64,000 nt of DNA, taken from positions 2,356,001 through 2,420,000 of the forward strand of contig NZ_CP016450.1 in the NCBI RefSeq assembly GCF_001713395.1, in the 5' to 3' direction. This DNA is from Sinorhizobium sp. RAC02. Its GTDB lineage: Bacteria > Pseudomonadota > Alphaproteobacteria > Rhizobiales > Rhizobiaceae. A program made the position numbers and the translations under genes. This document shows positions 50,598 through 53,982 of the stretch, in pieces (within the stretch, counting starts at the first letter, position 1; every line of letters starts with the position of its first letter). The notes below the pieces were generated by a model. That model saw only the letters and a program-made list of their open reading frames with translations, did no database searches and had not been told where the DNA came from.

Positions 50598-50753
50598 GCG
50601 CGAGCACCTATCCTTTTGTTTTTGCCCGGAACTATACGTGGACTGCGTCGATTTTCACCGGGCATTAACCATAATGGAAGAGGATGGCCATGCACCATGC
50701 AGGGTGCAGTTTCAGGAGCGATGACCGGCTCACGAACCGATCCGGGGACCATC

Positions 50754-51461
50754 ATGCCTGTCATCACCTTCGCCAACACCAAGGGCGGCGCCGGCAAGAC
50801 CACCGCCGTGCTGCTGCTTGCGACCGAGCTTGCCCGCCTCGGCTTCCGCGTCTCGGTGCTCGACGCCGACCCGCAGCACTGGATCACCCGCTGGTATGAG
50901 AATTCCGAAGGCCTGCTCGGCAACCGCCTGAGCGTCGTGCCCTACGTCACCATGAGCACGATCGACCGCCAGCTCCAGGAGCAGAAGGCCCGCGCCGATT
51001 TCGTTTTGATCGACCTGCCCGGTTCGCGTAGCTCGCTGCTTGCCAAGGCGGTCGGATATGCAGACTACGTGCTCATCCCCGTGCAGGGCTCCGCCATGGA
51101 TGCGCAGGGCGGCGCAAATGTCATCGAGCTGCTGCAATATCTCGAAGACAAGGCCGATATCCGCATCCGCCATTCGGTCGTGCTGACCCGCGTCAACTCC
51201 ATGGTGACGACGCGCGCCATGACGGCCGTAAAGGACCTGCTCGCTGCCCGCCGGGTGCACCTGCTCGAAACGCCGATCATCGAACGCGCTGCATTCCGCG
51301 ACATGTTCGGCTGCGGCGGAACGCTCTACACCATGGATGCAAAACGCGTCAGCAATCTCGACAAGGCGCAGGAAAACGCCCGGGCGCTGGCGCTGGAAGT
51401 GCTGAAACAGATCCCCAAGGCCCAATACGCCGACGCGCCGATCCTCAGAAGCGTCGCCTGA
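50754..51461 (+). CDS. ParA/MinD-like ATPase, 235 aa
   Basis: A deviant Walker A ATPase with ANTKGGAGKTTAVLLLA, SVLDADPQHWITRW and FVLIDLPGSRSSLL. Members of this group position large complexes or DNA. It follows cheB by about 156 bases with no ParB nearby. In Rhodobacter a ParA-type ATPase (PpfA) spaces cytoplasmic chemoreceptor clusters, and this cluster has a soluble receptor-like protein, so a similar role is possible. An ATG at 50721 is an alternative start. Confidence 0.85.
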   Translation: MPVITFANTKGGAGKTTAVLLLATELARLGFRVSVLDADPQHWITRWYENSEGLLGNRLSVVPYVTMSTIDRQLQEQKARADFVLIDLPGSRSSLLAKAVGYADYVLIPVQGSAMDAQGGANVIELLQYLEDKADIRIRHSVVLTRVNSMVTTRAMTAVKDLLAARRVHLLETPIIERAAFRDMFGCGGTLYTMDAKRVSNLDKAQENARALALEVLKQIPKAQYADAPILRSVA

Positions 51462-51488
51462 CAGCGTGTTCGTCCTGTAAATTTCGAG

Positions 51489-51515
51489 AGGCCGTCGTTT
51501 CCGCGGCCTTTTTTC
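51489..51515 (+). terminator. Rho-independent terminator
   Basis: AGGCCG and CGCGGCCT form a stem around 10 bases, followed by TTTTTT. It lies 27 bases past the ParA stop. Confidence 0.75.
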
Positions 51516-51544
51516 ATTTTGAGAGAGGGAGGGTCCAGAAATGG

Positions 51545-51697
51545 AAAAGCCCGCCGCGGGAGGAGGTGCGGCAGGCTTTCCGATAGAACCGAATGACGAC
51601 TGGGAGGAGGAGTGTCGCCATTCCCGCAGTCGGCCCTGGGAGGAGGAGTGGGCCTTCTGCAACATCGAAGCTTCGTGGGAGGAGGTACGTTGCTTCG
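51545..51697 (-). ncRNA. Array of four anti-Shine-Dalgarno hairpins (cuckoo/CcsR-like RNAs)
   Basis: On the minus strand CCTCCTCCC occurs four times, at 51677-51685, 51638-51646, 51602-51610 and 51558-51566, each in the loop of its own short hairpin (51666-51697, 51632-51654, 51594-51618, 51545-51580). The stems differ in sequence but the loops are the same. The last one ends in GGCTTTT, like a terminator. They lie directly downstream of a DUF1127 gene read in the same direction. This matches the Rhodobacter ccaF1-CcsR1-4 layout and the cuckoo RNA family (from memory). The loops are perfectly complementary to Shine-Dalgarno sequences. Confidence 0.85.
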
Positions 51698-51829
51698 ATA
51701 AATATGACTATATTCGATTCTTGATCATTTCATAGGCATCGTTTTGCAATGCAGCTATGCGTTATGCGCGTACCGAATATCTCAACTTCCCGAACCAATC
51801 CTGTTTCGGATACAACTCTTCGCATATGC

Positions 51830-51859
51830 GAAGACGCCCGCCGAGGGGCGGGCGTCTTC
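51830..51859 (-). terminator. Hairpin after the DUF1127 gene
   Basis: GAAGACGCCCGCC and GGCGGGCGTCTTC form a 13-pair stem around four bases, 28 bases after the DUF1127 stop. There is no T-run on the minus strand, so it may slow or process the transcript rather than end it, leaving read-through into the four small RNAs. Confidence 0.6.
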
Positions 51860-51886
51860 AAAATTCTGCCGTATGACGGCGGTCGA

Positions 51887-52033
51887 TCAGAAACCGACGG
51901 CGGCGCGGGCGACCGACTTGATTTCCGAGCGCTCGATGCCGAGATCGCGCAGTTCGCGTGCACTCATGCGGTCGAGTTCGTTGATGGTCTGACGGTACTT
52001 GCGCCAATTGCTGAAGGAACGTGCCATGTTCAT
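51887..52033 (-). CDS. DUF1127 protein (CcaF1-like), 48 aa
   Basis: The ATG at 52033 follows AAAGGGGATC. The protein is MNMARSFSNWRKYRQTINEL, then DRMSARELRDLGIERSEIKS, the classic DUF1127 pattern with an arginine-rich helix. Small DUF1127 proteins in alphaproteobacteria have been linked to RNA turnover and stress responses (established for CcaF1). Its position before the four hairpins supports the same role. The upstream region holds another hairpin. Confidence 0.9.
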   Translation of the reverse strand: MNMARSFSNWRKYRQTINELDRMSARELRDLGIERSEIKSVARAAVGF

Positions 52034-52147
52034 GATGATCCCCTTTCGTGAGGCTCTCTGTTCGGCACCGGTCCGTGGCGCCGCGTCTTTCGATGACCGC
52101 TTTATAGCTTTATGCTGCAATGCGGAACAGCGCTAAGCCGGCACGCC

Positions 52148-52175
52148 ACCCATGCGATTGATGCATGGGTCTTTT
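52148..52175 (+). terminator. Terminator-like hairpin
   Basis: ACCCATGC and GCATGGGT form a stem around 7 bases, then CTTTT. No gene on the plus strand is just upstream, so its use is unclear. Confidence 0.45.
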
Positions 52176-52211
52176 AAGCTTTTATTCAGGAAACGGGCGG
52201 AAAACCGGCTA

Positions 52212-53348
52212 TCAGGCCGCCAAAACGGCCCGTTCCTCTGCCAAAAAGGCCGAAATCCGCTTCAAACCCTCGCGCAGCACGCCCTCGTCATTCGTGTAGC
52301 CGATGCGCAGGTGCCCCTCCATATCCATGGCGCTGCCGGGTGTCAGCATGACGCCGGTGCATTCCAGGAGCCTGATGCAAAAAGCCTCCGAGGTGAGCGG
52401 CAGATCGTATTTCAGCAATGCCGTCGTGCCCGATTTCGGCTTCACCCAGGAGATCAGCGGTTCGCCGTCCACCCATTCAGCAAGGATGGCCAGATTGGTC
52501 CGGGTGATGGCGTGGCTGCGGGCGAGGATCTTGTCGCGGTTTTCCAGTGCGATGGCGGCGAAATGATCGTCCAGCATGCCGACGCTGATCGTATTGTAGT
52601 CGCGGTGGATCGAGACGGCGTGTAGCAGGTCCCTCGGCCCGACGATCCAGCCGAGGCGCAACCCCGCCAGGGAGTAGGTTTTCGACATGCTGCCGGTGCT
52701 GATGCCCTTCTCGTAGAGATCGGCGATCGAGGCGGTGATGCCGTTGCCGTGCTGGTCGGTGCCGCGATAGACCTCGTCGCAGAGGATCCAGGCGCCGCAG
52801 CCCCGCGCGATCTCGACGACCTCAAGCAGGAACTCCCGATCCATCAGCGAGCCGGTCGGGTTGTTCGGATTGTTGAGGCAGATGAGCTTGGTGCCGGGCG
52901 TCGCGAGCCGGCGCAATTCTGCGAGATCCGGCAGAAAGCCCTGCTCGGCCGTGAGCTTCAGGATCTGCACGTCCGCGCCAAAACTTTCCGGGATGGAATA
53001 GTGCTGCTGGTAGGTGGGCAGGACCGAGATGACCCGGTCGCCCGGTTCCACCAGCGTCTCGTGCACCAGCGCATTGGCGCCGATCGCGCCGTGGGTGACG
53101 ACGACGTTTTCCAGCACCTGTTTTTCGTACATGCCGGCGATGAGGCTGCGCAGCCGCTCGCTGCCTTCGATGGCGCCGTAGGTCAGCTTCATCGGCAGGA
53201 GTTCCGCGAGAATATCCTCGCGCTTGCCGGCCATATCCAGCAGTTCCGCGACGGTCAACGATTCTACGCAGGTTTCCGCGAGGTTCCACTCGCAGTGGTT
53301 CTCGTAACGGTTCATCCAGATTTCAACACCGAAATCGCGTATCTTCAT
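52212..53348 (-). CDS. Fold-type I aminotransferase, 378 aa
   Basis: A class I/II PLP enzyme. It has NLAETCVESLTVAELLDMAG at the start, LNNPNNPTGSLMD, ILCDEVYRGTDQHG and the PLP lysine in STGSMSKTYSLAGLRLGW, with LRIGYTN near the end. The start at 53348 gives the normal length; an upstream ATG at 53396 lies in the intergenic region. The substrate is unknown. A divergent XRE-cupin gene begins 64 bases away and is its likely regulator. Confidence 0.85.
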   Translation of the reverse strand: MKIRDFGVEIWMNRYENHCEWNLAETCVESLTVAELLDMAGKREDILAELLPMKLTYGAIEGSERLRSLIAGMYEKQVLENVVVTHGAIGANALVHETLVEPGDRVISVLPTYQQHYSIPESFGADVQILKLTAEQGFLPDLAELRRLATPGTKLICLNNPNNPTGSLMDREFLLEVVEIARGCGAWILCDEVYRGTDQHGNGITASIADLYEKGISTGSMSKTYSLAGLRLGWIVGPRDLLHAVSIHRDYNTISVGMLDDHFAAIALENRDKILARSHAITRTNLAILAEWVDGEPLISWVKPKSGTTALLKYDLPLTSEAFCIRLLECTGVMLTPGSAMDMEGHLRIGYTNDEGVLREGLKRISAFLAEERAVLAA

Positions 53349-53412
53349 GGCCGGGTCCTTTCGGGTTAGAAGGCGGCATGCGGCAGTGCCGCCCATTCAA
53401 TATCGGGACGAT

Positions 53413-53982
53413 ATGAGCAATATATTGCACAGTCAAGAACGCGGCGACGTACTCGCCCATGTCTCCGGCAATCTGCGGCGCCTGCGGCAGGCAGCGGGCC
53501 TCAGCCAGGCGGCGCTGGCGGAAGCCTCCGGCATCAGCCGACGCATGATCGTTGCCCTCGAAGGGGGGGACGCGAATATCAGCCTGTCCAGCCTGGACAA
53601 ACTCGCCGGCGCGATCGGTGTCGGTTTTGTCGATCTGGTGCGCGATCCAGCCCAGGCCCCCTCCGCCGAGATCAACGAGGTGACGTGGCGGGGGACGGAT
53701 CCTGAAAGCACCGCGGTGCTGCTTGGCTCGGCGCCGGCGACGAAAGAGACGCAGATGTGGCTCTGGTCGCTGGGACCCGGCGAGCGCTATGAGGCCGAGC
53801 CCGATCCCGCAGGCTGGCACGAGATGGTGTTCGTGACGGAAGGCACGCTGCAGCTGGAGCTTTCCGGCACCGCGAAGAGCTATGCGGCCGGCACGTTTGC
53901 CGTCTACGGCACCGACCGGAGCTATGCCTATGCCAATCCCGGCACCGAAACCGTGCGCTTCATACGCAACGTGATTTCCTGA
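53413..53982 (+). CDS. XRE-cupin transcriptional regulator, 189 aa
   Basis: The N-terminal XRE domain is NLRRLRQAAGLSQAALAEAS, then IVALEGGDANISLSSLDKLA. The C-terminal cupin is EMVFVTEGTLQLELSGTAKS. It diverges from the aminotransferase gene and ends four bases before the chrA stop on the other strand. Amino-acid sensing is inferred from the neighbour. Confidence 0.85.
   Translation: MSNILHSQERGDVLAHVSGNLRRLRQAAGLSQAALAEASGISRRMIVALEGGDANISLSSLDKLAGAIGVGFVDLVRDPAQAPSAEINEVTWRGTDPESTAVLLGSAPATKETQMWLWSLGPGERYEAEPDPAGWHEMVFVTEGTLQLELSGTAKSYAAGTFAVYGTDRSYAYANPGTETVRFIRNVIS

Follow-up and report, generated by a model that had tools for sequence, protein, structure and literature searches.

A short DUF1127 gene is followed, on the same strand, by an array of loops that carry an anti-Shine-Dalgarno (aSD) motif. 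What kind of RNA such an array encodes, whether it is made together with the gene in front of it, and which regulator might control both were examined by comparing the window (the whole 64-kb stretch of DNA analysed) with the rest of the source genome and with related genomes. Published work is represented here by excerpts of the cited sources.

Four Anti-Shine-Dalgarno Loops in Consecutive Hairpins

With both strands of the window searched, CCTCCTCCC was found exactly four times, always on the minus strand, against a chance expectation of 0.61; four or more copies occurred in none of 100 shuffles of the 64-kb window. Folding of 51540–51702(-) gave four consecutive hairpins with CCTCCTCCC in every loop (−70.2 kcal/mol, z = −6.0), and none of 200 shuffles was equally stable. 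The original prediction had placed four copies on the minus strand, one per stem loop and downstream of a DUF1127 gene on that strand; the count and the fold across 51558–51685 bear this out, and the open reading frame in front of the array matches Pfam DUF1127. Coordinates of all features are collected in Table 1.

The region of the repeats is also open on the plus strand (51541–51735, 64 aa), and the repeats might be thought to belong to that reading frame and not to an RNA. We give this reading next to no credence, as the frame is without a Pfam match, the distances from one motif copy to the next (39, 36, and 44) cannot all be divided by three, and the stems show compensating changes.

Table 1. 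Features of the array, the DUF1127 gene and the regions upstream of each, in window coordinates; the loop positions are those of the four CCTCCTCCC copies.
Feature	Position	Strand	Basis
Four-hairpin αr14/cuckoo sRNA gene (predicted ends)	51542..51702	-	RF02344 match, fold, and 160-nt SmelA099 counterpart
Hairpin 1, anti-SD loop 51677–51685	51663..51700	-	Fold; 7/8 consensus pairs changed on both sides
Hairpin 2, anti-SD loop 51638–51646	51624..51662	-	Fold; 7/7 consensus pairs changed on both sides; 87.2% of cells paired
Hairpin 3, anti-SD loop 51602–51610	51591..51623	-	Fold; 8/9 consensus pairs changed on both sides
Hairpin 4, anti-SD loop 51558–51566, then CTTTTCC after the stem	51544..51581	-	Fold
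-10-like hexamer TATAGT, 48 nt after site-core start	51707..51712	-	Best TATAAT-like hexamer in range
LsrB/VtlR-type site before sRNA (predicted), core GCATAGCTGCATT at 51748–51760	51744..51772	-	Matrix rank 1/127,944, score 35.95; core pattern match
Strong hairpin behind DUF1127 gene	51829..51860	-	−28.6 kcal/mol for 51824–51866; alignment
DUF1127 gene, 48 aa	51887..52033	-	ORF; PF06568 59.1 bits, cut-off 23.3
-10-like hexamer TATAAA, 49 nt after site-core start	52101..52106	-	Similarity to TATAAT; missed by the consensus promoter scan
LsrB/VtlR-type site before DUF1127 gene (predicted), core GCATGGGTGGCGT at 52143–52155	52139..52167	-	Matrix rank 2/127,944, score 23.22

Family Membership and Conservation of the Stems

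A single Rfam match was present in the window, to ar14 (RF02344; 51542–51666(-), 100.9 bits against a gathering cut-off of 58.8), and this check with a known model upheld the proposed likeness to the cuckoo RNAs. The match takes in hairpins 2–4, and hairpin 1 (51663–51700) lies almost entirely beyond it; because the Rfam ar14 model has three hairpins, four-hairpin copies are annotated one hairpin short. The cuckoo RNA family (Reinkensmeier and Giegerich, 2015) is described as having two to four hairpins whose loop motif is conserved and whose stems vary, the name and the range of hairpin number being those given in PMC4504443. The window array has the same design, with four adjacent hairpins that carry CCUCCUCCC loops and stems that vary in sequence while keeping their pairing. 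On the basis of sequence comparison we assign it to the αr14/"cuckoo"/NfeR1 sRNA family. The source genome contains six ar14 matches, five of them over the cut-off, and eight DUF1127 genes.

The four-hairpin form has a precedent. A 2011 study presented models of the three-hairpin SmelA075 and the four-hairpin SmelA099, both with CCUCCUCCC loops (PMC3927594), and the same source reports the suggestion that the two models represent one family in which the number of modules varies. SmelA099 of S. meliloti (smrA6, SMa6570; model RFMSmelA099) likewise has four hairpins with CCUCCUCCC-type loops and, at 160 nt, is about as long as the window sRNA by the predicted ends of the latter. In S. meliloti 1021, four aSD cores lie within the published SmelA099 coordinates on pSymA (coordinates from PMC2873474 and PMC7143759); the annotated neighbors in a second S. 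meliloti pSymA record are hypothetical proteins.

Among the matches listed there were at least 185 distinct related arrays, 46 of them with four hairpins, a set in which arrays outside Shinella are mainly the best-scoring matches listed (strong matches are therefore over-represented), rows stand for related genomes and not for independent events, identical arrays were counted once, and some arrays were shortened by the stem filter and gap rule (L029 and L033 carry four motifs and were counted as two-hairpin). The covariation alignment comprised 42 of the 46 four-hairpin arrays, the exceptions being L064, L065, L088, and L148, whose spacing or layout is irregular. Two-sided changes were found in 27 of 37 consensus pairs and 95.5% of cells were paired (42 four-hairpin arrays among the matches listed), the consensus structure having been derived from this same alignment, which favors that structure. 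Pairing dropped to 34–50% when the 3′ partners were slid by one to three columns, and the observed values were matched in none of 500 shuffles. The stems are thus conserved in relatives, a point on which the original prediction had staked itself.

In this alignment the four stems of the array co-vary, and their CCUCCUCCC loop is nearly invariant. Hairpin 1, for the most part outside the Rfam match, is supported on its own by two-sided changes (Table 1). Of the four stems, that of hairpin 4 is conserved best (100% of cells paired, two-sided changes in 5 of 13 pairs, six pairs invariant). Hairpin 4 is a possible intrinsic terminator; its loop of 10 puts it outside the reach of our terminator scan, which admits loops of 3–8 and returned an empty minus-strand list.

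LsrB/VtlR-Type Sites Before the sRNA and the DUF1127 Gene

We aligned 14 loci, namely the window, 11 Shinella orthologs, one more Shinella locus (G006), and the copy that the source genome carries on its third contig. The gene, the spacer, and the four hairpins align throughout, and a conserved block before hairpin 1 contains the box GCAT-N3-TG-N3-T, which is the box given for VtlR in PMC7486931. For LsrB, a TGCA-N6-GCAT site at NfeR1 has been characterized by gel shift and point mutation, with LsrB binding and activating the promoter (PMC10746234).

Both the 7-base box core alone (8 found vs. 8.24 expected in the window) and the 15-base Brucella motif with up to three mismatches (2 found vs. 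2.49 expected in the window) were at chance level, and we therefore relied on positional and matrix tests. In 69 of the 185 arrays among the matches listed, an exact box core precedes the first aSD core by 68–90 nt, and 300 permuted box patterns searched in the same slot of these arrays gave a mean of 0.16 and a maximum of 6. A matrix of 29 positions was then built from 46 αr14 promoters outside Shinella (among the matches listed), Shinella rows and the sites before DUF1127 genes being kept out of its training. Its two best positions in the window are the site before the sRNA and the site before the DUF1127 gene (Table 1); the third-best of the 127,944 positions scored 8.71, and 30 resampled windows yielded scores of 15.4 at most. 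By eye, the core before the DUF1127 gene is present in all 14 aligned rows. With a match to the published box in both promoters, at predicted sites, we conclude from the comparison of sequences that LsrB/VtlR-type sites are conserved before the sRNA and before the neighboring DUF1127 gene. A consensus scan of 51450–52260 found no sigma-70-type promoter, which makes the -10-like hexamers of Table 1 weak evidence.

Related sRNAs have such sites as well. SmelA099 has an LsrB/VtlR-type site (matrix score 21.6) with its core 75–76 nt upstream of the first aSD core. NfeR1 (SmelC397/Smr14C2), the S. meliloti αr14 sRNA, has the Rfam family, the loop motif, and an LsrB-type promoter site in common with the window array, but it has three hairpins where the window has four, and an NtrC site has been described for it.

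The matrix was also applied to the rest of the source genome, where, as a positive control, sites scoring 18.3, 25.8, and 26.9 were found directly upstream of three of the four AbcR copies. The AbcR pair adjoins a LysR-family gene, which by its position is a candidate lsrB/vtlR. VtlR directly controls AbcR1 in Agrobacterium, where AbcR2 is unaffected (PMC7486931), and both AbcR2 and the three DUF1127 genes are VtlR-dependent in Brucella (PMC12595884). For S. meliloti, LsrB is reported to be without effect on AbcR1/2 (PMC7486931), whereas an LsrB site in the AbcR1 promoter is referred to in PMC10746234; given these conflicting reports, the targets of the regulator differ or are disputed.

A matrix site scoring at least 14 lies upstream of five of the genome's eight DUF1127 genes, three of these five genes adjoining αr14 copies; the remaining three genes have no matrix site directly upstream. 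Two DUF1127 genes without an adjoining recognized αr14 copy, L186 (G000:C1:2119343) and L187 (G000:C3:375232), have matrix sites of 15.7 and 20.6, respectively, about 85 nt before the DUF1127 domain match. Separately, GCATNGSTGSNNTKC occurs at 18 genome sites. For 10 of these (L166, L167, L170–L174, and L178–L180), the range searched behind the site contains no DUF1127 gene and no aSD core; the reversed GCATNGSTGSNNTKC control gave nine genome sites, so many GCATNGSTGSNNTKC sites may be due to chance.

One Transcript or Two

The likeness to ccaF1-CcsR1-4 of Rhodobacter sphaeroides (CIN1-type), drawn in the original prediction, holds for the arrangement but is unsupported for a single operon. 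In both cases cuckoo-type hairpins follow a DUF1127 gene on its own strand. The pairing of short DUF1127 genes with neighboring CcsR-like sRNAs has been described as the CIN1 locus (PMC10253847), and the window qualifies under that definition, taken from a citing paper, with its short DUF1127 gene adjoining cuckoo hairpins on one strand. In R. sphaeroides, however, one RpoHI/RpoHII promoter serves the locus and RNase E processing yields four sRNAs, whereas the window has a separate promoter-like block before the array, which would probably give one RNA.

The distance from the DUF1127 stop to hairpin 1 is about 187 nt, with the strong hairpin of Table 1 and the promoter-like block in between, and a shared transcript of gene and array is therefore not established. 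The hairpin is followed by TTTTT in 12 of the 14 aligned loci (by eye). In the window and in one relative (G007) the T run is broken (14-locus alignment, by eye), so that some read-through from the DUF1127 gene is possible. Such read-through would suit an operon of the ccaF1-CcsR type, in which gene and hairpins form one transcript that RNase E, helped by the DUF1127 protein, cuts into separate stress hairpin RNAs; order and strand are as in ccaF1-CcsR1-4, and SmelA075 is reported to occur in processed forms. We nevertheless consider an operon of this type unlikely, since the window array has a high-scoring site of its own at this distance behind the gene and the minus strand of 51501–52400 lacks a CTTG core.

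CTTG is part of the RpoH consensus. With this core absent from the interval just named, the heat-shock sigma promoter raised as a possibility was rejected, with the qualification that a diverged site is conceivable. SmelA075, the three-hairpin relative, is reported to be strongly detected in S. meliloti after a shift from 30 to 40°C, which leaves room for a role in stress.

Layouts of Related Arrays

The layout of related arrays bears on the same question. Sites were called at a matrix score cut of 8, Shinella labels in the matrix and layout tests were assigned by hand, and own-site counts outside Shinella are inflated because part of those arrays trained the matrix. Where a DUF1127 gene lay less than 110 nt in front, arrays had no site of their own (0/37), and in 29 of 37 cases a site preceded the gene (among the matches listed), which fits co-transcription there and is a further point for an operon; in this compact layout the own-site slot mostly coincides with DUF1127 coding sequence, and the lack of an own site is therefore no surprise. 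L088 (gap 100, compact class) has an exact box core at 83 nt and a matrix score under 8. Four-hairpin arrays 110–400 nt behind the gene, the split layout of the window, had their own site in 21 of 21 cases and one before the gene in 20 of 21 (among the matches listed), which argues against the operon reading for arrays spaced as in the window. The Shinella arrays of this class, kept out of matrix training, had it in 12 of 12.

Twelve further arrays at 110–400 nt (nine three-hairpin and three two-hairpin) had no site of their own (0/12, among the matches listed); several stand second or third in tandem sets, and L029 and L033 are among the twelve. Arrays without an upstream DUF1127 gene had their own site in 19 of 22 four-hairpin, 42 of 87 three-hairpin, and 3 of 6 two-hairpin cases (among the matches listed). 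A control slot downstream of the arrays contained a site in 8 of 185 (among the matches listed).

Two or three arrays stand in tandem behind one DUF1127 gene at L125, L129, L147, L152, L156, L157, and L159. In a genome from a different family within the order, a region of G019:C130 at about 30–34 kb (L019/L034) contains three weak ar14-like matches among four same-strand DUF1127 genes; it is without an exact CCTCCTCCC and possibly consists of tandem DUF1127-cuckoo units.

Predicted Mode of Action

Most probably, the array is a four-hairpin αr14/cuckoo member of the SmelA099 type in Shinella, an LsrB/VtlR-activated sRNA that would block Shine-Dalgarno sequences, with the DUF1127 gene under the same regulator. 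A sigma-70-type promoter belonging to the sRNA and activated by LsrB/VtlR would give rise to a single RNA of about 160 nt ending at hairpin 4, and the DUF1127 gene would form a separate unit, with its own promoter activated by the same regulator. Translation may then be blocked by the pairing of each loop with Shine-Dalgarno sequences similar to GGGAGGAGG, and the loops are presumably redundant, as in NfeR1. We infer this mechanism from NfeR1, whose redundant loops are described as pairing with particular mRNA start regions, e.g., that of ntrB, and whose transcription LsrB activates.

Identical loops in multiple copies, with a motif complementary to Shine-Dalgarno sequences, could instead act as a sponge that titrates ribosomes, an RNase, or an RNA-binding protein rather than silencing particular mRNAs. 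This seems very improbable to us, as the published NfeR1 loops silence particular mRNAs and the effect is lost once all three are mutated.

A search of the genome for GGGAGGAGG-N3-10-ATG gave 10 sites, one of them antisense to the first loop of another αr14 copy. The five target candidates with an ORF of at least 149 aa are all transport proteins. Behind control AAAGGAGG sites, however, about 5 of 13 ORFs of at least 100 aa look like transport proteins by eye, and the enrichment of targets in transport was therefore not counted as evidence.

Genomic Neighborhood

The array had also been noted as lying next to a chemotaxis cluster. A chemotaxis link was rejected: among 12 other Shinella loci, with flanks that would take in at least the edge of a ParA gene positioned as it is here, the neighboring ParA gene was found in five and the aminotransferase in nine, and the R. 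etli copy adjoins kduI. In the window, a ParA/VirC1-like ATPase gene (50616–51461(+)) follows genes that we take, from a reading of their translations, to be cheW-cheR-cheB, and converges on the sRNA. The plus strand also has a terminator-like site at 51486–51512. On the other side, a helix-turn-helix and cupin regulator (53347–53982(+)) is divergent to an aminotransferase-like gene (52212–53396).

Implications for Cuckoo sRNAs in the Rhizobiaceae

Much of this picture is already known, namely the family, the four-hairpin form, the DUF1127 neighbor, LsrB at NfeR1, and VtlR at AbcR and DUF1127 genes. In the open-licence literature, as far as its excerpts extend, we found no description of LsrB/VtlR sites on both cuckoo-DUF1127 partners or of the contrast between compact and split layouts. 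As to the protein partner, CcaF1 is reported to bind RNA, and short Agrobacterium DUF1127 proteins to act through PhoR (PMC12501420).

An unannotated locus is now placed in a studied sRNA family, and the idea of heat-shock control gives way to a specific and testable regulator. We lean, by a narrow preference, toward a broader reading in which the cuckoo sRNAs of the Rhizobiaceae belong, together with their DUF1127 partners, to a single module that LsrB/VtlR controls and that comes in two layouts: a compact one, in which a single site before the DUF1127 gene would drive gene and hairpins, and a split one, as in the window, with a copy of the site each for gene and sRNA, matched promoter spacing, and a fourth hairpin. 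The contrast between the two layouts links work on NfeR1 and LsrB to work on CcaF1 and the CcsR RNAs. If this reading is correct, a redox-sensing regulator would deliver a small DUF1127 protein and a Shine-Dalgarno-blocking RNA together, and evolution would have switched the coupling of gene and sRNA between co-transcription and co-regulation.
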